From the NCBI RefSeq assembly GCF_014270035.1, contig NZ_JACNEP010000005.1:62001-126000 (forward strand): a DNA stretch of 64,000 bases. The letters run 5' to 3'. The notes beneath the pieces are model-generated. The model did not search any database and was not told the DNA's origin. It worked only from the letters and a program-made list of their open reading frames with translations. The DNA comes from Neptunicella marina. GTDB taxonomy: Bacteria; Pseudomonadota; Gammaproteobacteria; Enterobacterales; Alteromonadaceae. Shown piece by piece: positions 6,841 through 64,000 of this stretch. The number at the start of each line of letters is the position of its first letter. Within the stretch, counting starts at the first letter, position 1. The translations under genes were made by a program, and so were the position numbers.

Positions 6841-7830
6841 TCAGCAATTTCCATTGATCTGAGACATAAGCGTTAACGGAGGCTCTTGCAATGCGGCAAA
6901 TTGCTCTTTTAACGCCAGAATTTGTTGCTCCCAATACTGCTGAGTAGCAAACCATGGGAATGCTGCAGGAAAAGCAGGGTCATGCCAGCGGTTCGCCAGC
7001 CAGCCCATATAATGAATCATGCGCATAGCACGCAAAGGTTCAATCAAAGTCAATTGAGAATGATCAAAGTCACAATATTCACTATAAGCTTCAACTAATG
7101 TGTCCAGCTGCAACAACTGCTCCTGACGATCGCCAGACAGCATCATCCATAAATCTTGTATTGCAGGCCCCATTCGACAATCGTCCAAATCAACAAAGCT
7201 TGGCCCATCGCGCCACAAAATATTTCCGGGATGACAATCACCGTGCAGCCGAATACAGTGATGCTCAGAAAACTGCTCTCTGACCTGATTGATCACCATA
7301 TCAACAATAGTGAAAAAAGCTTCATGCAGGTTAACTGGAATGATCTGACTATTACGCAGTACGTCTCCAGGCTCATTTAAATAAGCATCGAGCGTTATTT
7401 TAGGGCGAAATTCAAAATCCTTGCCTTGAGCTACCTGATGAATACGACCAATAAAACGTCCCATCCATTCAAGTTGCTCAAGATTGTCAACTTCAAACTG
7501 GCGCCCTCCGACTGATGGATAAAGAGCAAAATAATATGACTGGTATTCTAATAGGCTGCCAGCAGAAAAATTCAGCGGTGCAACAACCGGAATATCGTGG
7601 TTTGCCAGCTCATGCGCGAATTCATGCTCTTCAATTAATTGCTGTTTTGTCCAGCGCTGAGGACGATAAAACTTAACAACATAACGTTTATTATCGCTGG
7701 CTATAAACTGATAAACCCGGTTTTCATAGCTATTAAGTGGCAGCAAACCGGATGCAACCTCAATCCCAACGGACTCAATGGCATCTAAAATGACATCTGG
7801 CGACAGCGCCGCAAAATTAAATTCAGCCAC
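6841..7830 (-). CDS. srkA: Stress response kinase SrkA (YihE family)
   Basis: A 329-residue aminoglycoside-phosphotransferase-fold kinase, the usual length for SrkA. The ATP-side lysine is in YVVKFYRPQRW (about 50-60), the catalytic loop is HGDCHPGN (196-203), and the metal-binding FVDLDD is at 212-217. In E. coli this protein kinase counters stress-induced death linked to the Cpx response. It lies 9 bases after ccoG on the same strand. In many gammaproteobacteria srkA pairs with dsbA; here dsbA is close but separated by btuB. Confidence 0.92.
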   Translation of the reverse strand: MAEFNFAALSPDVILDAIESVGIEVASGLLPLNSYENRVYQFIASDNKRYVVKFYRPQRWTKQQLIEEHEFAHELANHDIPVVAPLNFSAGSLLEYQSYYFALYPSVGGRQFEVDNLEQLEWMGRFIGRIHQVAQGKDFEFRPKITLDAYLNEPGDVLRNSQIIPVNLHEAFFTIVDMVINQVREQFSEHHCIRLHGDCHPGNILWRDGPSFVDLDDCRMGPAIQDLWMMLSGDRQEQLLQLDTLVEAYSEYCDFDHSQLTLIEPLRAMRMIHYMGWLANRWHDPAFPAAFPWFATQQYWEQQILALKEQFAALQEPPLTLMSQINGNC

Positions 7831-51371: not shown

Positions 51372-54107
51372 ATGACTACAAAAAAATTAACCATCACCTT
51401 AGTTGCAGCAGCGATAATTAGTCTAACAGGCTGTGGACAGAAATCAGCAGAACAATATTTAGAGAGTGCGCAACAGTTTCAACAACAAGGAGACTTTAAG
51501 TCAGCAATAATCGAACTAAAAAATGCGATTAGCGCCAATCCGTCTAATAGTGAGATGCGATTGAAACTTGGGCAAATATACTTAGAACAAAGCAATTTCA
51601 CTGCAGCAGATAAAGAACTCAATAAAGCATTAGATTTGAACGCAACCGCAGACGACGTACTGCCCTTCCTAGTTAAAACACAATATTATTTAGCTGATTA
51701 TGAAAGAGCAGTTTCACTTGCTCAAAGTATTCAATTAAGCGATGAACAGGCTCAAAGTCGAGTAAGTTTCTATAGCTATATTTCTAATCTACGTTCGCCT
51801 TTACCTTCCACAGACTATTCATTTCCTCAGGATCTAATTGGTGATGACCAAATATTAGGGAAGATATATCAGGCGTTAACTAACAACGAATTAGAATCAG
51901 CTGAGCAACTGAGCCATTCACTTGAAGAAAATAACTATGAATTGGCTCAAAAAAATTATGTAAAAGGTTTAATTGCTTCACAACAACAAAAGTTTAGTGA
52001 AGCCAGTCAATATTATCAGAAAGCCTTAAAAATCTATCCCAGCTGGCACCAAGTATCTTTTCAGCTGGCGGATGCGCAAATCAGAGATAAAGACTATAAC
52101 GCTGCATCCAGCGTAATTGATCGTCTGCTTACACTTAATAAAGAAAATCCTTATGCCAATTTACTCAAGGCTCGGATTTATTTTGAACAACAGGATTACG
52201 CAAAAGCATTACCACATGCAGAAAAAGCAGTTCAAAATGGTCTGAACTCTAAAATGGCGCAACTGATTGCAGGCAGTAGTGCCTTAAAAGAGAAAAAGTT
52301 GGAGCTAGCATATAAATATCTAACTCAGGCTGCTCAAGGCATGAGTAAAGATAATCTAGTCTATCGCCTATTGGCCCAAACGCAGCTTTTGCTTGGTTAC
52401 ACAGAAGAAGCACAAAATACACTCAGTCAACTGGAAGGACTGAGTAAAATTGACGCCGACCTTTTTTCCTCAACAGGTATAAAGCTGGCCCTAAAAGGTG
52501 ACGTTGACGAAGCAAAAACGTTTTTTGAAAAAGCAAACCAGGCCGATTCTTCCAATGCAGCAAATCTACTCAAAGAGGGAATGCTTAAACTCGCAACCGA
52601 TGATGCATCAGCGATAACAACGGTTGAGAAAGCTATTCAGCAGGATGATGAATTAAAGCAAGCCTGGATGGTATTAGCTCGGGCTTATCTAAAGCAAGGT
52701 AAAAATGCAGAGGCATTCAAAGTTGCAAACGATTGGCAGCAAAAATCCCCCGCAGATGGCTTAACCCTAAAAGGGGTTATTTATCAGGAGTTAAACCAAC
52801 CACAAAAAGCAGCAGAGGCATTTAAACAAGCTCTAGAAATTGAACCTACACATGTAGGGGCCTACTTTTTACTTTTGAGGGCCTACCAGCAACTAAACGA
52901 ACTTGATCGTGCGATCGAAGTAGGTAGGGATATTATAACTATCTCACCTGATGAGATGCGTGCCTATGTATTACTACTACAATTATTTGAACAGTCTCAT
53001 AAGCTAAAAGAAATTAAACCGATACTTGAACAAAAAATAACAGAAGAACCAGACCTACTTAGCCCTAAGGTTGCATTGGCCCTCTATTACAGAAGTTCAA
53101 GCAAACCGCAAGAAGCCATATCTATCCTTGAACCGATAACGGAACTAAACAGTCTAGGACTCATTATCCTTGGTGACTCAAATTTACAAGCGAAAGATCT
53201 AGTTAAGGCATCAGCGGCTTATAATAGATTACGGGATAAATTTCCAAATGACTCACGCGGATGGTTGAGAGGAATTGGCGTACTAGAACTACAAGGTAAT
53301 ACACAACAAGCGTTAGAGCTGACAGAAAAGGCTCTAAAAAAATTTCCAAATTCACAATCTCTAAAACTATTGCAAATAAACTATCAAACACAAACAGGTC
53401 AACTGGAAAAAGCCAACCATTCCCTGACCCTTTTGAAAAACACTCAAAATGCAGAAAACGACACCCTGCTAAAATATGAAGGTGAACTAGCTCTTGCAAA
53501 TAAAAATTTTAAGCAAGCTCAAAATCTTCTCGAGAAATTTTATGAACGTTATCCGTCTTTTATTTCTGCCGTCCCTCTTGCAAGAGCAATGCAATCAAAT
53601 AACCAATTTGAAAAGGCATCCAAGCTACTTGAAGATGAATACGCAAAATTAGATGATCCTAACAAGCATAATCATACTATGGCCGAGTTTTTTAGTTTTA
53701 ATGGTGCTTACGAAAAAGCGGCATTGTATTATCAAAATGCGCTTAAACTTAATCCTCAAGACATCGCTGCAATAAACAATCTGGCAATAGTTGAAATTAG
53801 CAGAGGCAACTCATTGAAAGGATTAGAGCTTGCTAAACAAGCTTATAGCCTGTCACCATCAATTCCTCAAATTGAAGACACACTAGGTTTTGCTTATTTG
53901 CGTAATGAGCAATTAGAGCAAGCCAACACACACCTTACAAATGCAACAAAACTGTTACCAAACGATAATGACGCCAAGTTACATTATGCAGAACTTCTGA
54001 TATTAACTGATAAACATTCTCAAGCCCGAAAACTACTTGAAAACTTAACATCAGAAAGCGCAAAAATAATTAGCAGGAAAGAAGAGCTACTAAACAAATT
54101 ACAGTGA
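51372..54107 (+). CDS. prsT: XrtA/PEP-CTERM-system TPR lipoprotein PrsT
   Basis: A 911-residue lipoprotein (lipobox LTGC, Cys21) made of about twenty TPR repeats from residue 25 to the end, for example QQQGDFKSAIIELKNAISAN and AKTFFEKANQAD. It matches the exosortase A-associated PrsT family (I recall TIGR02917), thought to form a periplasmic scaffold for export. AGAGAAGGGAA precedes the ATG. Part of the gene is AT-rich (53341-53400 has 17 of 60 G+C). The usual partners PrsK and PrsR, a sensor kinase and a sigma-54 activator, are not in this window. Confidence 0.93.
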   Translation: MTTKKLTITLVAAAIISLTGCGQKSAEQYLESAQQFQQQGDFKSAIIELKNAISANPSNSEMRLKLGQIYLEQSNFTAADKELNKALDLNATADDVLPFLVKTQYYLADYERAVSLAQSIQLSDEQAQSRVSFYSYISNLRSPLPSTDYSFPQDLIGDDQILGKIYQALTNNELESAEQLSHSLEENNYELAQKNYVKGLIASQQQKFSEASQYYQKALKIYPSWHQVSFQLADAQIRDKDYNAASSVIDRLLTLNKENPYANLLKARIYFEQQDYAKALPHAEKAVQNGLNSKMAQLIAGSSALKEKKLELAYKYLTQAAQGMSKDNLVYRLLAQTQLLLGYTEEAQNTLSQLEGLSKIDADLFSSTGIKLALKGDVDEAKTFFEKANQADSSNAANLLKEGMLKLATDDASAITTVEKAIQQDDELKQAWMVLARAYLKQGKNAEAFKVANDWQQKSPADGLTLKGVIYQELNQPQKAAEAFKQALEIEPTHVGAYFLLLRAYQQLNELDRAIEVGRDIITISPDEMRAYVLLLQLFEQSHKLKEIKPILEQKITEEPDLLSPKVALALYYRSSSKPQEAISILEPITELNSLGLIILGDSNLQAKDLVKASAAYNRLRDKFPNDSRGWLRGIGVLELQGNTQQALELTEKALKKFPNSQSLKLLQINYQTQTGQLEKANHSLTLLKNTQNAENDTLLKYEGELALANKNFKQAQNLLEKFYERYPSFISAVPLARAMQSNNQFEKASKLLEDEYAKLDDPNKHNHTMAEFFSFNGAYEKAALYYQNALKLNPQDIAAINNLAIVEISRGNSLKGLELAKQAYSLSPSIPQIEDTLGFAYLRNEQLEQANTHLTNATKLLPNDNDAKLHYAELLILTDKHSQARKLLENLTSESAKIISRKEELLNKLQ

Positions 54108-54592: not shown

Positions 54593-55351
54593 TTATGCTT
54601 TCTTACGGCGCGCAAAACCTGCAAAACCAAGCATACCTAAACCTAATAACGCCAATGAAGAAGGTTCAGGAATTGAGTTACCAGTAATCTGGAAACTTCC
54701 GCCTAACTGAGTGTCACTACCAATACCTTGGAATGAAGAATCCAGTACCATATCATAGCCACCAGCTTCACCATTAGTATCGAAATTGTTCCATGCTAAC
54801 CCAACTTGCTCAACATTCAATAATGCAGAACCGTTACCAGTATCAGAACCTGTACCCAAGTTATCCGCACCTGAACCACTAAGTGAATCAGAAGTTAACT
54901 GCAACCATAAGTCACCATCACCAGCAGTACCCGAAGTACCATTGTAATTTTGTGCATAATCAACAAAGAAATTGATTTCCAGATTAGTGAATTCGAAATC
55001 ACCTTCGTTACCTACAACGCCTAAAGTACCTGAAGTGATATCAAAACTTACCAACTCCATAGAGAAGGTGAAAGTTAACTCACAACCTGGACAAAACAGA
55101 GCTGAATTTGGATCCTGAGAGTTAATGTTCAGCACCCGGCCATAACCGGTCAATATTTCACCAGGAGTACCTGATGCAACATCTTCCAGGATAGCGCCAC
55201 GCATGTTGAAATCCTGTAACATAGGGAACGGGTTATTAAGTTCTTCATCCGGATCCCAAATAACACCACCAACATTGATTGGGCTAGCCATCGCACCAAC
55301 TGATAGAATCAGTGCAGATAAACCAGCAGCGCAAGCTTTTTTAAAGTTCAT
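54593..55351 (-). CDS. PEP-CTERM sorting-domain protein (exosortase A substrate)
   Basis: From the ATG at 55351 (AGGAAGGA 7 bases upstream) the protein has 252 residues: a signal peptide (MNFKKACAAGLSALILSVGAMA), a Gly/Ser/Asn-rich all-beta domain with one Cys pair (LFCPGCELTF), and a full PEP-CTERM tail, IPEPSSLALLGLGMLGFAG then RRKKA. Exosortase A is expected to cut near PEP and release the protein to the surface with the polymer. The gene is flanked by a sigma-54-type promoter and its own terminator, so it is a single-gene unit. The frame open to 55381 is not preferred. Confidence 0.94.
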   Translation of the reverse strand: MNFKKACAAGLSALILSVGAMASPINVGGVIWDPDEELNNPFPMLQDFNMRGAILEDVASGTPGEILTGYGRVLNINSQDPNSALFCPGCELTFTFSMELVSFDITSGTLGVVGNEGDFEFTNLEINFFVDYAQNYNGTSGTAGDGDLWLQLTSDSLSGSGADNLGTGSDTGNGSALLNVEQVGLAWNNFDTNGEAGGYDMVLDSSFQGIGSDTQLGGSFQITGNSIPEPSSLALLGLGMLGFAGFARRKKA

Positions 55352-55433
55352 AACAAATTCCTTCCTATTACTTTTCAACAATCGCCAGTTAAACTCAGCG
55401 ATTGGCTAAATTAACTGTCCCGACAAGGTAAAA

Positions 55434-55449: not shown

Positions 55450-55538
55450 CTCAACAATAATATATAACACATTGTTTTTATTATATTTTATTAAAAATCA
55501 ATTCAACAGTCATAACCTGTATGTAAAAAATTTCGACA

Positions 55539-56594
55539 CTATTCTTTTAAGAAAGATGAAGCTTGTCTGCGTTGTGTCTTAGCTACCGTATCCTTCATAT
55601 ATCCAACACGCAAAAACATAATCGTTTTAAATATATTTCCCGAAATATCATCGAGTTGTTTTTCAATCAGTCCAAGCTCTTTCATCAAATTTGGCTCTAT
55701 ATCTGGCTTTGCCAGAGTCAAAACACCAGGGGCAGCATATAATTGCACAGATAACCCTTGAGATGTGCACTCAAGCCATATACGCATAAGCTGTCTACCG
55801 GCATTAATTATACCATCCCGCGAAATATCAGAACTCGATAGCATTAACAGCCCTGGTGAAGAGTTAATTGGCTTTACAACTGACTTTTTGGCAATTTCCT
55901 TACTTGCGCCAATAAAATTAAGTAATCGCATGATTTTCCAGTTACTCATTATCTTAAAACCAGCTTTTTCGAACTTTGCAATTCCTAGTACGTCCAAGTT
56001 CATCCCCACTGGAGTGGGATCGTAGTTGAATACAACTGTCTTAAATAATTCCTGATGTAATACTTCAGATTCAAATCTAATTTTTTCTGCTCGATAAATA
56101 ACAGGGACTATGCTGCTTATTTGATCTGGTTCATTAAACACTTTAAGTTGGCATCGTTTATCAGAAATAGCACTACTGATTCTTGCAATTGTTTCATCAT
56201 TTACATGACCACCAAATGGAAATCTTCGGTCAGTACGTCGCTCTGATATTTGTTCCGCCAACCTTTCAGCATTTGCTCGAGCCTGCTCACTCGAAGGTTT
56301 GGAAAAAACAACTGCGGCAACATAGAAGACAGAATTTGCACCTTCAGGGAAATAATTGACAGTCGTCTCATATCCTAAACTTTGTGCTTGAATAGTAACG
56401 GATTCTATCACTGCGCCGATTGCCAGGTCAGACAATACAAACGTTTTATCTGTTGCATGTCCACAAAGCCTCTCATCCAAAAACAATGATAAACAGTTAT
56501 CATTATCCCATTTATATAAAAAGGGTTGAGAGTTATCAGCGGAAGGCGCCTGTATCGCCGCATCTAATATTTGTTTCTGATGAATATCATCCAT
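55539..56594 (-). CDS. Nitroreductase-like (Acg-type) protein
   Basis: A 351-residue flavin-fold protein with two nitroreductase-like halves. ILDAAIQAPSADNSQPFLYKW (about 9-29) and ERRTDRRFPFGG (about 129-140) are the family signatures; QLMRIWLECTSQGLSVQLYA is the second-half helix. It resembles the Acg/MoeY-type nitroreductases that are often found beside, or fused to, ThiF-like enzymes, and the ThiF-like gene is indeed directly upstream (34 bases). The substrate is unknown; oxidation or reduction of an adenylated or acylated intermediate is inference. Confidence 0.82.
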   Translation of the reverse strand: MDDIHQKQILDAAIQAPSADNSQPFLYKWDNDNCLSLFLDERLCGHATDKTFVLSDLAIGAVIESVTIQAQSLGYETTVNYFPEGANSVFYVAAVVFSKPSSEQARANAERLAEQISERRTDRRFPFGGHVNDETIARISSAISDKRCQLKVFNEPDQISSIVPVIYRAEKIRFESEVLHQELFKTVVFNYDPTPVGMNLDVLGIAKFEKAGFKIMSNWKIMRLLNFIGASKEIAKKSVVKPINSSPGLLMLSSSDISRDGIINAGRQLMRIWLECTSQGLSVQLYAAPGVLTLAKPDIEPNLMKELGLIEKQLDDISGNIFKTIMFLRVGYMKDTVAKTQRRQASSFLKE

Positions 56595-56628
56595 ATTGCG
56601 CTAAACTCACTTCAAAATAATTAAAAGT

Positions 56629-57480
56629 TTAAATACCCCAAGCTTTTTTTGCAGCAATCAATTTGGCTTGAAACTCATCATTTTTATGGCCATTAGGGAT
56701 AGAAGTTTTTTCCATTTGATTCAAATAAGGATCCCAATGCATGCCTTCCGGAGCACACACCAATTCACCTCTATTTAATAAAATTTTGACTGCATAAGCA
56801 GCCGCCACACCGGCGGACATGGTACAGCCAATAATAGTGGAAGGGCCTTTTTTAGCATTTAGATCAAGACGGGTAGGATCAACTAGATATGTGGACTGCA
56901 AATTAGCAGGGGCTAAACCTAGATAAAACCTTAAATACTGCTCGGTTTCTGATACGCCACCCATACCAAAATATTCCTCAAACGTCATTTGGCCTGGCAT
57001 AAAACATAAAAAAGCGGTTCCCATGCCTAACGGAGCCGCAGTAATTGCCGGTATCCCTCTTTCTGCACATGCAGCGAAAACAGATCTACGGGCATCAATT
57101 GCAAAAAAATCCAAACTATCGATATATAAATCAACACCATATAGAAACTCATCGAGATTGCGATCATTAATGCCTTGCGCAAACTGATGGATCTCAGCTT
57201 CAGGATTTACATCAAGCACCATGTCATTAATAACATTCAACTTAGGGCGATCAACACTCGACATAGTCGCTCCGATCTGACGATTGAAGTTTTCTATTCC
57301 ATATTCATCAAAATCGGCAAGACTAAATTTTCCAATCCCCGTTCTGGCCATAGTTAGTGTGTGAATTCCACCAACACCACCACAACCAGCTATTGCGACC
57401 TTCTTACCTCTCAATTGCTGCTGTTCTTCTTCTGTATACCAGCCGATATTTCTGGAAAAGGCGTCTTCGTATTTAAACAT
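56629..57480 (-). CDS. ThiF/MoeB/HesA-family adenylyltransferase-like protein
   Basis: A 283-residue E1-like protein. VAIAGCGGVGGIHTLTMARTG (about 29-49) is the nucleotide-binding loop, DFDEYGIENFNRQ (about 56-68) carries the Asp and Arg that bind ATP, and RPKLNVINDMV follows. The zinc-binding CxxC pairs of MoeB/ThiF are missing. It would adenylate a carboxyl group of a small molecule or peptide. AGGGA precedes the ATG. It lies 11 bases after the acyltransferase gene, so they share an operon. Confidence 0.87.
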   Translation of the reverse strand: MFKYEDAFSRNIGWYTEEEQQQLRGKKVAIAGCGGVGGIHTLTMARTGIGKFSLADFDEYGIENFNRQIGATMSSVDRPKLNVINDMVLDVNPEAEIHQFAQGINDRNLDEFLYGVDLYIDSLDFFAIDARRSVFAACAERGIPAITAAPLGMGTAFLCFMPGQMTFEEYFGMGGVSETEQYLRFYLGLAPANLQSTYLVDPTRLDLNAKKGPSTIIGCTMSAGVAAAYAVKILLNRGELVCAPEGMHWDPYLNQMEKTSIPNGHKNDEFQAKLIAAKKAWGI

Positions 57481-57491
57481 TGTGTTCCCTA

Positions 57492-58262
57492 CTATTGAGG
57501 TTGTTTAATAATGTATGGGTACAGTTTTATTTGCCTGACTAACTGCTGTTCAAGCAATGAATAAAGTTCCAACATATCGTCATTAAATTGAGATTCAAAA
57601 TTACTTCTGGTTAAACAAAACAGAGCCCTTGTTCCACGATAATCTTTGGCTTCAGATATTTGCTCAAACATCAATCCAACTCGTTCTAGTCTTTTTTTAA
57701 GACGAGGTTCCACAACCACGTACATCATTTCATGATTGCAAATCTTGGCAAAAGAAATGATGCTCAAATACAATCCAATGGCGATATTGGGAAAATTGCT
57801 TCTTTCTTCCCCTGAAAATACATCTTCTGAACTTTCTTCATTTAAGATAAAGGGTTGTTTTTTCTCACCAGCCCTGCGTCTAAATGTTTGTGGCACCGCC
57901 AGACGTGACACTTCACCGAATGCCCCTCTAGGCAAAGACTCAGGCCTAGTTGCTGATTCATACATACAATCTGAAAAATGACCTTCGAATGGCAATGCGA
58001 GATGAGACTTTTCAGGTGGTGGGATCACAAGCCTAACGGTACCGGCATACAAACCCGTTCGCTTGTGCCGCAATAATAATGAATGTGCGTATTTATCGAA
58101 TAAATCAGTTTCAGTGCCAGCCTGAGTTGTGGGCTCCCAACCTAGCTCTTCCGCATATACCTGATGTCTGATTTTGTAACCTTCAGTTCTTTTTGATACA
58201 TCATCTGCGTACACTATTTCAAAATATGAGTTGAAATTTTCCGCTAACGATAAACTTGCCAT
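57492..58262 (-). CDS. PEP-CTERM/exosortase-associated acyltransferase (autoinducer-synthase-like GNAT)
   Basis: A 256-residue GNAT-fold protein of the LuxI-related group I recall as TIGR03694. Typical parts are FEIVYADDVSKRTEGYKIRH (about 14-33), RHQVYAEELGWEP, LYAGTVRLVIPP and GEVSRLAVPQTFRRR (about 116-130). It probably makes an acyl-linked small molecule from acyl-ACP or acyl-CoA. Neither the product nor a role in signalling has been shown as far as I know. It is followed by the ThiF-like and nitroreductase-like genes. Confidence 0.88.
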   Translation of the reverse strand: MASLSLAENFNSYFEIVYADDVSKRTEGYKIRHQVYAEELGWEPTTQAGTETDLFDKYAHSLLLRHKRTGLYAGTVRLVIPPPEKSHLALPFEGHFSDCMYESATRPESLPRGAFGEVSRLAVPQTFRRRAGEKKQPFILNEESSEDVFSGEERSNFPNIAIGLYLSIISFAKICNHEMMYVVVEPRLKKRLERVGLMFEQISEAKDYRGTRALFCLTRSNFESQFNDDMLELYSLLEQQLVRQIKLYPYIIKQPQ

Positions 58263-61711: not shown

Positions 61712-62500
61712 ATGAATTTGAGACAAAAAAACACAATGTTTTCAAGAATACTACTGCTGATAACAGGTTTATTAACATACATTTCAGCAAACGCTGAGAC
61801 GGCATTACCAGAATTGGTAAAACAGATTAAACCATCAGTAGTCGGGATTGGAATGTATGAACCGTTAGGCTCACCGAGAAGCCAGCTTAATGGTTCAGGA
61901 TTTGTCATTGCTGACGGACATTATGTCGCCACTAATTATCATGTTGTTGATCAACAACTCGACCCAAATCGAAATCAGTCTCATGTTGTTTTTATTGGCC
62001 AGGGTGAACATCCCAAATTAGCCAAGGCGGAAATTGTGGCTTTTGATGCAGCACATGATATTGCGATTTTAAAAATGAGTGAGAAAGCCAAACCCTTTAT
62101 AATTGCATCAGATAATTATATTGATGATGGAACAGATGTCGCGTTTACTGGTTTTCCAATCGGAGCCATTTTAGGTTTATATCCTGCCACACACAGGGGC
62201 GTAATTTCAGCCTTAACACCAGTAGTCATCCCAAGTGCAAATGCCAAACAATTAAGTATAGAAATGATGAAGCGCTTGAGAGAACCTTATTTTGTCTATC
62301 AAATGGACGCCACTGCCTTTCCGGGTAACAGTGGAAGTCCGGTTTATGAACTAAATAACGGTCAGGTTGTAGCGATAATCAACAAAGTATTTGTACAAAG
62401 GACAAAAGAGGCCGCGATAACGGATCCAAGCGGTATCAGTTATGCCATTCCAGTTAAATATTTGAGGGAACTTGCCAAAAGCATTAATATAGAACTGTAG
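61712..62500 (+). CDS. Secreted trypsin-like serine protease (S1C-like)
   Basis: A 262-residue protein with a signal peptide (ILLLITGLLTYISANA) and a chymotrypsin-fold protease domain. The triad is visible: His77 in NYHVVD, Asp116 in AAHDIAIL and Ser207 in FPGNSGSP. There is no PDZ domain, unlike DegP/DegS. ATG at 61736 (MFSRILLL) is an alternative start and gives a cleaner signal peptide. It is divergent from the dehydrogenase gene and precedes the Tat-protein unit; it might process exported proteins of the locus. Confidence 0.87.
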   Translation: MNLRQKNTMFSRILLLITGLLTYISANAETALPELVKQIKPSVVGIGMYEPLGSPRSQLNGSGFVIADGHYVATNYHVVDQQLDPNRNQSHVVFIGQGEHPKLAKAEIVAFDAAHDIAILKMSEKAKPFIIASDNYIDDGTDVAFTGFPIGAILGLYPATHRGVISALTPVVIPSANAKQLSIEMMKRLREPYFVYQMDATAFPGNSGSPVYELNNGQVVAIINKVFVQRTKEAAITDPSGISYAIPVKYLRELAKSINIEL

Positions 62501-62515
62501 CTGTCAGTTTTTTTT
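62494..62515 (+). terminator. Weak terminator after the protease gene
   Basis: A 5-bp stem AACTG/CAGTT overlapping the stop codon is followed by eight T. The short stem suggests partial termination. Confidence 0.5.
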
Positions 62516-62569
62516 ACAGCATCACAAGGAATTTGATACTTTTTCAGCTAAATATCAAACAGTTACCAA

Positions 62570-62587
62570 TTGGATCAAAAATTGCTT
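62570..62587 (+). promoter_or_regulatory. Sigma-54-type promoter of the Tat-protein/HPr-rel-A unit
   Basis: TTGGATC-AAAAA-TTGCTT keeps GG-N10-GC (62572-62573 and 62584-62585) and the TTGCT of the -12 element, with two mismatches in the -24 element. The start codon lies about 45 bases downstream. Confidence 0.68.
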
Positions 62588-62631
62588 AGTAACATTGCTG
62601 AGGTGTTTTTGAGGTGAGGAATTGCAGCAAC

Positions 62632-63213
62632 ATGACAGATTTAAACAAATCAAATCAGTCTGATAAATCAGTCGACAATAGAAGATCGTTCCTGAAAAAA
62701 GCTGGGACGGCTTCAATTATTGCTGCGTTACCGGTCAGAAACGTGTGGGCATCTTACGATGCATGTACCATTTCAGGCGCTATGTCTGGCAATCACTCGC
62801 AGCAACAAACCTGTACCATTCAGGGGCGCTCTCCTGGATACTGGCACAATTATTGTGACTCAAGAAACCGTACATACAGTGTTCAGGGCTATGGCACCTC
62901 AGGCAGTTGGGGATACAGCGCAGAAAACTACCCATGGAAAGATGTCTTTGGGTGGGGACGTTCTCCTTTTGGAGGAACCAGTAGCAGAAAAGGATTACAT
63001 GAATTTCTGCCTCAGGAAGGTAGCTACAATAATTATGGCGGACCAGACAATATAAACCGCCATCTTGTAGCAGCATACTACAACGCCGTGAATGGATTTT
63101 ATCCGTTGCAGCCAGGTACTTATCCTGAACAATATGTTCAAATGCTTTATGATGAAGCCAAGAGAAGTGGCACATACACTGTTGCTCAGGCAATTCAGGA
63201 CACTTACCAGTAG
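62632..63213 (+). CDS. Tat-exported protein with SPGYW-type Cys/aromatic domain
   Basis: From the ATG at 62632 (GAGGTGAGGA 11 bases upstream) the protein has 193 residues. NRRSFLKKAG (16-25) is a twin-arginine signal, with the membrane part ending near VWAS. The mature part is rich in Gly, Tyr, Ser and Trp and has three Cys; GRSPGYWHNYC, then KDVFGWGRSPFGG, LHEFLPQEG and NRHLVAAYYNAV follow the pattern of SPGYWKN-type domains I have seen in secreted bacterial proteins. The function is unknown. It is probably the target of the PqqD-like/HprK-like genes next to it. A GTG at 62614 is an alternative start. Confidence 0.78.
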   Translation: MTDLNKSNQSDKSVDNRRSFLKKAGTASIIAALPVRNVWASYDACTISGAMSGNHSQQQTCTIQGRSPGYWHNYCDSRNRTYSVQGYGTSGSWGYSAENYPWKDVFGWGRSPFGGTSSRKGLHEFLPQEGSYNNYGGPDNINRHLVAAYYNAVNGFYPLQPGTYPEQYVQMLYDEAKRSGTYTVAQAIQDTYQ

Positions 63214-63225
63214 TCAGCTCTTACT

Positions 63226-63486
63226 GTGCTCTATAAATTACATCCCCAAGTAAAAATTCATTACGCCAGCGATAAGTCTGGCGTTTTAATTTTTAGCGGT
63301 TTCAAAGGGCAAATTTGTCAGTTTTCTGCTGCGATTATCAGTCTGATAACAGCACTGGAAGCCCTACCGTCGATCTCATATTCTCTATACTGCAATTTAC
63401 CGAGTGAATTAAATAATGCTCAACGCGAGGAAGTTTGGCATAGTTTAATTAATCACTATATCTTAACTAAAAGCCCGGCAGAGTAA
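63226..63486 (+). CDS. PqqD-like protein of the HPr-rel-A system
   Basis: An 86-residue protein with a GTG start 12 bases after the Tat-protein stop. The pattern LHPQVKIHYASDKSGVLIFSG, then a helix-rich end (AQREEVWHSLINHYIL), is that of a PqqD/RRE-like peptide-binding fold, and its place directly before an HprK-related kinase matches the HPr-rel-A type of system. PqqD-like domains hold a leader peptide for a modifying enzyme. The substrate is not known. The ribosome site is weak. Confidence 0.72.
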   Translation: MLYKLHPQVKIHYASDKSGVLIFSGFKGQICQFSAAIISLITALEALPSISYSLYCNLPSELNNAQREEVWHSLINHYILTKSPAE

Positions 63487-63535
63487 TTTATCTGACTGAA
63501 TTTGCTGCTTATAATTCAAGGACGTTGCAGTCACA

Positions 63536-64000
63536 ATGCAGTTACACCAGCTCAAATTTGACGATTATATTCATAAGATGACAAATGATGGTTTGTGTCT
63601 TGACCTTGGAGTTGGCGTATTTCGCTTTAAATCACACATAACCTCAGTACAGCAGAATGTTTACGAGATGTATGCGGATTATAATATTACAGAAGATAAA
63701 CCTGCAGACTTTCATGCATGTGTAAAATTAGCCAAAGGCCCACGGCACTATATTAACCCACAGGTGCATTTTGAATCTGATGTTGTGACACCTTTTTTAC
63801 CACTACCAAAATCGCAGGCATTTCCATTATTGGAATGGGGCATGAACTGGTGTCTGAGCGCTTACGATTTTAATCATTTCATTCTGCATGCTGGTGTCAT
63901 CGCCAATCAACAAAATGAAGCGTTTGTTTTCCCGGCACCTCCCGGCTCGGGGAAAAGCACACTTACGGCATTTTTAGCCTATTCAGGCTGGCGTTTGTTA
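63536..64000 (+). CDS. HprK-related kinase A (3' end outside the window)
   Basis: The open frame begins at ATG 63536 and runs through the window edge (155 residues seen). HFILHAGVIANQQNEAFVFP leads into a Walker A loop APPGSGKSTL (134-143), as in HPr kinase and the HprK-related kinases of PqqD-containing systems. The first 100 residues are an extra N-terminal domain. The C-terminal catalytic half is not visible, so activity cannot be judged. It is separated by 49 bases from the PqqD-like gene. Confidence 0.83.
   Translation, partial: MQLHQLKFDDYIHKMTNDGLCLDLGVGVFRFKSHITSVQQNVYEMYADYNITEDKPADFHACVKLAKGPRHYINPQVHFESDVVTPFLPLPKSQAFPLLEWGMNWCLSAYDFNHFILHAGVIANQQNEAFVFPAPPGSGKSTLTAFLAYSGWRLL

Follow-up and report, generated by a model that had tools for sequence, protein, structure and literature searches.

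The closest described counterparts of the operon analysed here combine a RiPP recognition element (RRE; RiPP, ribosomally synthesized and post-translationally modified peptide), an HprK-like kinase and a nucleoside triphosphate (NTP) transferase. The operon starts at the end of a 64-kb stretch of the Neptunicella marina genome (4.14 Mb, 46 contigs; C42:62001-126000, called the window below), and its first gene encodes a protein with a twin-arginine translocation (Tat) leader, the proposed substrate of the enzymes encoded behind it. In the linear polyphosphorylated peptides (LPPs) of Bacillota, a kind of RiPP, the three activities are joined by an SpI peptidase and an exporter, and the genes often lie in capsule loci (Popov et al. 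2026, PMC13381572). LPP precursors carry the motif YxxPxVLxHQxIxFETxxS, and the kinase LppK adds up to four phosphates at a sole site, Ser3 of the core (PMC13381572); by our own count, the final S of the motif, taken as Ser3 with T-1 cleavage, lies 15 residues past the Pro. LPPs are stated to be restricted to Bacillota (PMC13381572). An RRE, an HPr-kinase homologue and a nucleotidyltransferase also occur in the paeninodin and pseudomycoidin loci (PMC8498205, PMC13381572), and the phosphate of pseudomycoidin is reported to receive one or two hexoses from the nucleotidyltransferase (PMC8498205).

By its kinase and synteny only, we would place the operon with the HPr-rel-A systems (NCBIfam TIGR04352 HprK_rel_A and TIGR04353 PqqD_rel_X). 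Full-text literature searches (subscription papers outside their reach) found no paper naming the HPr-rel-A system and none pairing HprK with PqqD, and the listed titles and abstract starts showed no link between an HprK/PqqD pair and a twin-arginine protein. HPr kinases proper phosphorylate HPr. An exosortase in the genome is typical of HPr-rel-A, and XrtA scores 333 bits here; a kinase over the family cut-off and an RRE-like partner in the same slot complete the likeness. The NCBIfam models of HPr-rel-A that we met cover the kinase and the PqqD protein, and for the Tat-leader protein there was no NCBIfam or Pfam family of its own.

It turned out that this Tat protein is a near-constant partner of the HprK_rel_A kinase. 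The best explanation, which we hold with somewhat more confidence than doubt, is that the RRE/HprK/NTP-transferase module phosphorylates the Tat protein on serine before export, with S48, S52 and S56 as candidate sites. The initial annotation had read a GG-N10-GC sigma-54-type promoter, a twin-arginine protein with an SPGYW stretch and a P-loop HprK-related kinase, all on one strand with short gaps, and each of these stands; the PrsR box beside the promoter was absent from it. The three genes of the window are all + strand genes, 12 and 49 nt apart. The window cuts the kinase gene, and the operon, which the initial annotation had left to be completed beyond position 64000, was completed from the flanking locus L002 as a run of six genes, where the kinase end is followed by an NTP_transf_5 nucleotidyltransferase, PrsK and PrsR. 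The features are as follows (window coordinates unless L002 is named).

62502-62518, + strand, PrsR (PEP-CTERM regulatory) box TGTCR-N6-TTTACA, fitting motif 1 of Haft 2006 by length, end and spacing
62571-62586, + strand, sigma-54 -24/-12 promoter TGGATCAAAAATTGCT, GG-N10-GC, 53 nt 3' of the PrsR box
62632-63213, + strand, gene (open reading frame, ORF) of the Tat-leader protein, 193 aa, proposed substrate
62680-62751, + strand, twin-arginine leader RRSFLKKAGTASIIAALPVRNVWA, residues 17-40, RR in 131 of 132 aligned sequences
62764-62799, + strand, C45-x-x-S48-G-x-x-S52-G-N-x-S56, proposed phospho-acceptor segment by conservation
63226-63486, + strand, RRE/PqqD-like gene by synteny and predicted fold, 86 aa, GTG start
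63263-63284, + strand, terminator-like hairpin with T-rich tail within the RRE gene, possible leaky attenuator
63536-64000, + strand, HprK-related kinase A, first 155 of 301 aa (whole gene L002 3536-4441), TIGR04352 306 bits
L002 4435-5580, + strand, NTP_transf_5 nucleotidyltransferase, PF14907 133.8 bits
L002, end at 7624, + strand, PrsK, TIGR02916 614 bits
L002 7625-9004, + strand, PrsR, TIGR02915 712 bits

Three genome sets were used: 59 genomes (the window's own and its relatives), 369 genomes of its class and a phylum-wide draw. The loci comprise 57 distinct kinase loci (L002 and 56 fetched), 80 named loci (the best 80 of 543 relatives) and 19 further loci, the top-scoring of 42 phylum-wide genomes with a kinase over the cut-off, less those already known, all outside the window's class. 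Leaders were searched with a hidden Markov model (HMM) of 46 positions, seeded from 32 loci. It replaced twin-arginine heuristics with a charge-free window, which were dropped as many members were missed. Up to 6, 9 and 14 candidates per genome were scored in the profile scans (class-wide kinase, Tat profile A1 and one more).

Among the 59 genomes, the kinase family TIGR04352 (HprK_rel_A) is over its cut-off in 18, and the Tat protein has a BLAST match (E<0.01) in 12, with the kinase directly downstream in 12 of 12; in the class, 41 of the 369 genomes hold a kinase over the cut-off. An ORF matching the leader HMM lies 5' of the kinase in 56 of the 57 loci, including 24 of the 25 that were not seeds, and the sole miss (L127) is a locus that starts just 640 bp 5' of the kinase. 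Other ORFs of at least 40 aa in these 57 loci gave zero leader-HMM matches at E<0.05. The named loci contain a Tat ORF in 79 of 80 cases (74 by leader HMM, 5 divergent ones by eye), and in two of them (L153 and L186) the called ORF has only the leader part past the arginines. The two sets have 3 identical proteins in common, and 131 of 135 are distinct. As a fresh test, the 19 further loci were examined: a leader ORF is present in 17 of them, on the same strand as the kinase in 16 and on the opposite strand in 1. The gene order is the same in nearly all loci, including records named Thiobacillus, Massilia, Magnetospira and Malonomonas rubra.

The reverse test gave a similar picture. Profile A1 of the Tat protein, built from kinase neighbours, matched the 369 genomes 32 times above 80 bits. 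A kinase over the cut-off stands beside 31 of these matches, which bears out the expectation of the initial annotation that the protein belongs with the PqqD/HprK pair. The lone exception is a second copy with a leader in G352:C20, with no over-cut-off kinase beside it. Below 80 bits, most A1 matches cover just the SPGYW part or are short peptides, and the weak ones resemble ordinary Tat signals; one A1 match (G272:C152) begins at a contig end. Besides, 38 of the 41 kinase genomes have an XrtA match at E<=0.001 (35 of 41 at the XrtA cut-off), against 79 of the 328 others; the kinase genomes lacking such a match are G110, G115 and G342.

The kinase scores 306 bits against a TIGR04352 cut-off of 200. 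In alignment A3 (39 of the 57 kinases), H119, the P-loop G137-x-G139-K140 and D157-E158 (numbering of L097) are invariant, and the family profile aligns the H, the P-loop and the D with the HPr kinase structure 1jb1 (E 0.01). Of the 57 and the 80 loci, 55 and 78, respectively, have the nucleotidyltransferase, and in each of the 4 exceptions a contig end is at most 0.8 kb away. The called nucleotidyltransferase ORF starts no more than 300 nt from the kinase end in 43 of the 57 loci.

The small PqqD-like protein of the initial annotation was kept in part. It has no PqqD-type NCBIfam match at E<=1 and no Pfam match, and it is too divergent to match TIGR04353, the family found in 37 of the 51 same-slot proteins used (alignment A2, 51 of 57 slots); its slot and its predicted fold point the same way as the earlier name. 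For the AlphaFold2 model (predicted local distance difference test, pLDDT, 77.9), the best Foldseek matches are the leader-bound lasso B1 proteins 6jx3, 5v1v and 5v1u (E 0.014-0.03, weak). Ranks 1 to 24 are all RREs or RRE-bearing RiPP enzymes, which we take to be of the MccB, McbB and CteB type (names beyond the structure titles), and winged-helix demethylases (NO66) appear from rank 32. VIA-align gave 6ec7 (thiomuracin TbtB) with Z 8.4 and a root-mean-square deviation (rmsd) of 2.4 over 80 residues, and 5v1v with Z 7.1 and rmsd 3.5 over 81, MINA53 (Z 7.8) being among the tied rows. Since the RRE matches form an unbroken run and agree with the synteny, while the single E-values are all weak, we describe the protein as resembling an RRE/PqqD-like protein by predicted fold and gene position.

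Residues of the Tat protein are numbered from ATG 62632, which has a GAGG stretch 5' of it; the longest ORF starts at GTG 62614. The N-terminus contains NRRSFLKK and then V-W-A ahead of SYDAC; cleavage probably follows A40. The TAT_signal model reaches 17.4 bits in the genome-wide search, over its cut-off of 16.7, and 14.7 bits, below it, in a single-protein scan; the genome encodes TatC (250.8 bits), and the protein is probably exported through Tat. The leader and the following C-x-x-S-G-x-x-S are kept among the Tat proteins and the remainder is variable. In the aligned family of 135 sequences, C45 is found in 127 of 130, S48 in 125 of 133, S52 in 127 of 133, S56 in 106 of 129 and C61 in 120 of 127, and S48 and S52 are invariant across the 40-sequence alignment A5 (A5 and A6 contain 39 of 79 and 39 of 77 named sequences, respectively, plus that of the window). 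A scan of 56 members found no Pfam or NCBIfam family of their own, with stray single-member matches including Tat-signal models, and the Pfam scan of the window's protein gave no PEP-CTERM match.

The AlphaFold model of the Tat protein (40 sequences, predicted template modelling score 0.59, pLDDT 64.7) has helices from about residue 61, with 10-residue means of 63-88 save 46 (residues 81-90) and 51 (the end), and residues 43-60 lie below 50. A conserved segment modelled with no confident structure is what an enzyme target would be expected to show. The initial annotation had the protein folded before its modification, which finds no support in such a model of the best candidate segment. Foldseek and VIA-align on this model gave no usable match, and a new fold is not implied. 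The SPGYW stretch (residues 67-71) had also been given a central place, and it lost that: the strict SPGYW-like pattern occurs in 36 of 56, 65 of 79 named and 0 of 17 phylum-wide members. The SPGYW part was also seen with no twin-arginine leader in G073:C37, G138:C1, G142:C6 and G157:C48, in frames of 290-1352 aa. Conversely, the substrate-slot protein of L120 (8532-8753) has just 74 aa, that is, the leader and about 12 residues past the likely cleavage site.

Short ORFs of 57-149 aa were picked up by the leader profile as well, some beside kinases below the TIGR04352 cut-off. The 17 short peptides of alignment A4 (L274 omitted, leader HMM E 0.7) have in common RR-x-F, Y-x-x-P and, beyond the probable cleavage site, a Gly-Ser. 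Class-wide, there are 23 short matches at E<2e-9 (the spurious L295 omitted). Within the leader, Y-x-x-P occurs in 22 of the 23 short relatives (17 of 17 in A4 and 5 of 6 others, the sixth having F), and it occurs in 0 of 30 ordinary Tat signals (30 of 118 matches, seven genomes). A Ser stands 16 residues past the leader Pro in 17 of the 23 short peptides and 15 residues past it in 16 of the 17 phylum-wide leaders. These short twin-arginine peptides are likely RiPP precursors with a Tat leader. As many as three copies occur, and some of the peptides are encoded next to RRE-like and divergent HprK-like genes, others at separate loci; for example, those of L256, L257, L259 and L260 stand beside kinase-like genes and those of L261, L263, L266 and L267 do not.

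Before PEP-CTERM genes, a 17-nt motif ending in TTTACA is followed after about 63 nt by a sigma-54 site, the spacing from motif 1 to the sigma-54 motif 2 is 32-92 nt, and PrsR is the predicted binder of the first motif (Haft et al. 2006, PMC1569441). The fit of the box in the window was judged from the described length, TTTACA end and spacing, without the motif logo; its 53 nt from box end to GG fall within that range. The combination of TGTCR-N6-TTTACA and GG-N10-GC was spotted first by reading kinase loci, and the rule (GTCR-N6-TTTACA, GG 28-95 nt later) was fixed after that. This rule finds the pair 5' of 32 of the 56 Tat ORFs, compared with 8 hits in 2240 random windows of the same loci and 3 in 5600 shuffles. 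The 64-kb window has only two such pairs, one 5' of the Tat gene and one 5' of a PEP-CTERM gene, and genome-wide 7 of 10 PEP-CTERM matches (9 of the 10 over the cut-off) have the pair upstream. The operon sits within a PEP-CTERM/exosortase A region, since a PEP-CTERM protein gene (54593-55381, - strand) and the following two lie in the window.

51372-54107, PrsT, 498 bits
20676-21452 (C42:82676-83452), XrtA, 333 bits

The operon thus resembles the PEP-CTERM/exosortase A regulon in its PrsR box and sigma-54 promoter and in having PrsK, PrsR, PrsT and XrtA in its region, and differs from it in the Tat protein, which is no PEP-CTERM match. By phmmer with the window sequences, in loci cut at about 9 kb or less, PrsK lies near the kinase in 14 of 57 and 16 of 80 loci and PrsR in 13 of 57 and 25 of 80; as general operon neighbours they were dropped, being present in a minority of loci. 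With a similar rule, a hairpin is seen behind the Tat stop codon in 7 of the 56 loci, compared with 14 of 1120 random windows; since similar hairpins recur there, the one at 63263-63284 is possibly a leaky attenuator, a milder reading than separate transcription.

From the association computed here we infer the following course. The 86-aa RRE/PqqD-like protein would bind the twin-arginine leader and offer the segment past it to the kinase. The kinase would then put one or more phosphates on serine, with S48, S52 and S56 as candidates and T46 also possible, and the NTP_transf_5 protein may decorate the phosphate, perhaps with a sugar as reported for pseudomycoidin. The product would leave through Tat with its leader removed. 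PrsK/PrsR and sigma-54 would switch the operon on together with PEP-CTERM surface proteins, and the product probably acts in the exopolysaccharide or surface layer. The Tat protein is the likeliest modified substrate because a similar trio of Bacillota phosphorylates Ser3 of a leader-bearing precursor (PMC13381572). RRE-guided serine phosphorylation is the best explanation because the same three activities are present, the serine spacing is kept phylum-wide and the short peptides have the motif at near-equal spacing.

Compared with LPP, the likeness consists of a discrete RRE (in the window by predicted fold and synteny only), an HprK-like kinase, an NTP transferase, a polysaccharide locus and a precursor with a conserved N-terminus and a variable rest, to which come the Y-x-x-P of the short relatives and the Pro-Ser spacing, mostly 15-16 in short and further-locus leaders. 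The system differs in its twin-arginine leader, its host outside Bacillota, its 193-aa substrate with a predicted helical part, its sigma-54/PrsR-type promoter and a window leader that lacks Y-x-x-P. By family names, none of the six operon genes is an SpI-type peptidase or an MsbA-like exporter, a genome-wide search for them not having been made. It would work like LPP tailoring, yet it is not LPP. The paeninodin and pseudomycoidin lasso peptides share the RRE, the HPr-kinase homologue and the nucleotidyltransferase, and differ in a C-terminal Ser target and a lasso cyclase. Filing the operon with them was rejected: the window's protein ends in ...DTYQ with no C-terminal Ser, and naming the operon genes, to which the cyclase search was confined, gave no cyclase.

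Several points weigh against phosphorylation of the Tat protein by this module. The window leader has no [YW]-x-x-P, the Pro at the aligned column is present in only 51 of 134 long leaders, and the serines stand at varying distance from the leader in the window's class. Y-x-x-P leader binding in the window protein itself was therefore rejected, and RRE-leader binding rests on the relatives because of this missing motif and these 51 of 134; for the window's protein the argument would run by family, not by motif. A listed kinase-like match is found no more than 5 kb away from 11 of the 23 short matches, and the other 12 have none so near (the kinase positions of G106 are absent from the list used); some of the hits behind A4 had been noticed for lying by kinases. 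A kinase with no leader ORF found is seen in L356 and L357, and in a Nitrosospira-labelled metagenome-assembled genome an HprK_rel_A-like kinase (L149 7001-7897) has no Tat ORF found upstream. The low pLDDT at residues 43-60 may stem from the shallow alignment, not from disorder. The promoter pair is missing by rule in 24 of 56 loci, and where it is present, in the other 32, the sigma-54 site is poor in a few cases. In the LPP expression system, deletion of lppN made no change (PMC13381572). The kinase of L149 is perhaps an orphan.

Next to phosphorylation of the Tat protein, the best surviving alternative is that this protein is a partner or reporter and no substrate: the kinase would act on HPr, as HPr kinases proper do, or on a lipid or sugar intermediate of polysaccharide, and the Tat protein would work outside the cell. 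The sugar-nucleotide genes, XrtA, PrsT and other exosortase-system genes of the region agree with it. We consider it unlikely, as a dedicated protein with an RRE-like fold implies a peptide substrate that bears a leader, no other feature is as constant as the leader and the core varies, and the very similar trio of Bacillota phosphorylates its precursor (PMC13381572). Somewhat less credit goes to a modified Tat protein whose lasting mark is no serine phosphate. Nucleotidylation or glycosylation by NTP_transf_5, or chemistry on C45 and C61, would then make the mark, with phosphorylation a step or absent. The nucleotidyltransferase is indeed as constant as the kinase, the two cysteines are conserved, and pseudomycoidin carries hexoses on its phosphate (PMC8498205); against this, no redox or cysteine-modifying enzyme is among the four core genes by family name, and the phosphate is the primary mark in the published trio (PMC13381572). 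That separate PrsR-regulon genes merely sit together by chance is hardly credible; the promoter type common to the Tat operon and the PEP-CTERM genes would suit it, and the same gene order in nearly every locus and the co-occurrence counts weigh against it.

Phosphorylation of the Tat protein would matter in several ways. For the HprK_rel_A kinase, the near-constant protein of the first gene is a specific candidate substrate with named residues. If true, the RRE/HprK/NTP-transferase chemistry would not be confined to peptides of Bacillota but would reach Tat-exported proteins in other phyla, and it would be linked to the exosortase regulon, where floc formation is reported to involve an RpoN-dependent PEP-CTERM gene (PMC9850573). 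A further idea, to which we give roughly one chance in four, is a RiPP class whose leader peptide is itself the twin-arginine signal, so that the hydrophobic stretch read by Tat would also be the RRE docking site and serine (poly)phosphorylation would gate export, in products from peptides of about 60 aa to proteins of 200-300 aa; a phosphate extended by the nucleotidyltransferase would tie the product to exopolysaccharide made on the same PrsR/sigma-54 signal.

Some neighbouring genes were also observed. The PEP-CTERM gene at 54593-55381 has the other PrsR box and sigma-54 pair of the window, on the - strand near 55537. A trypsin-like protease gene (61712-62500, + strand) stands directly before the operon, and its product, a possible fifth part of the system, may process the exported protein; such a protease is found near the HprK_rel_A kinase in 28 of 57 loci, 16 of them directly 5' of the Tat ORF. 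At 55539-58262 (- strand), genes for an Acg-like oxidoreductase (below cut-off) and ThiF adjoin a PEP-CTERM/exosortase acyltransferase (TIGR03694, 215 bits).

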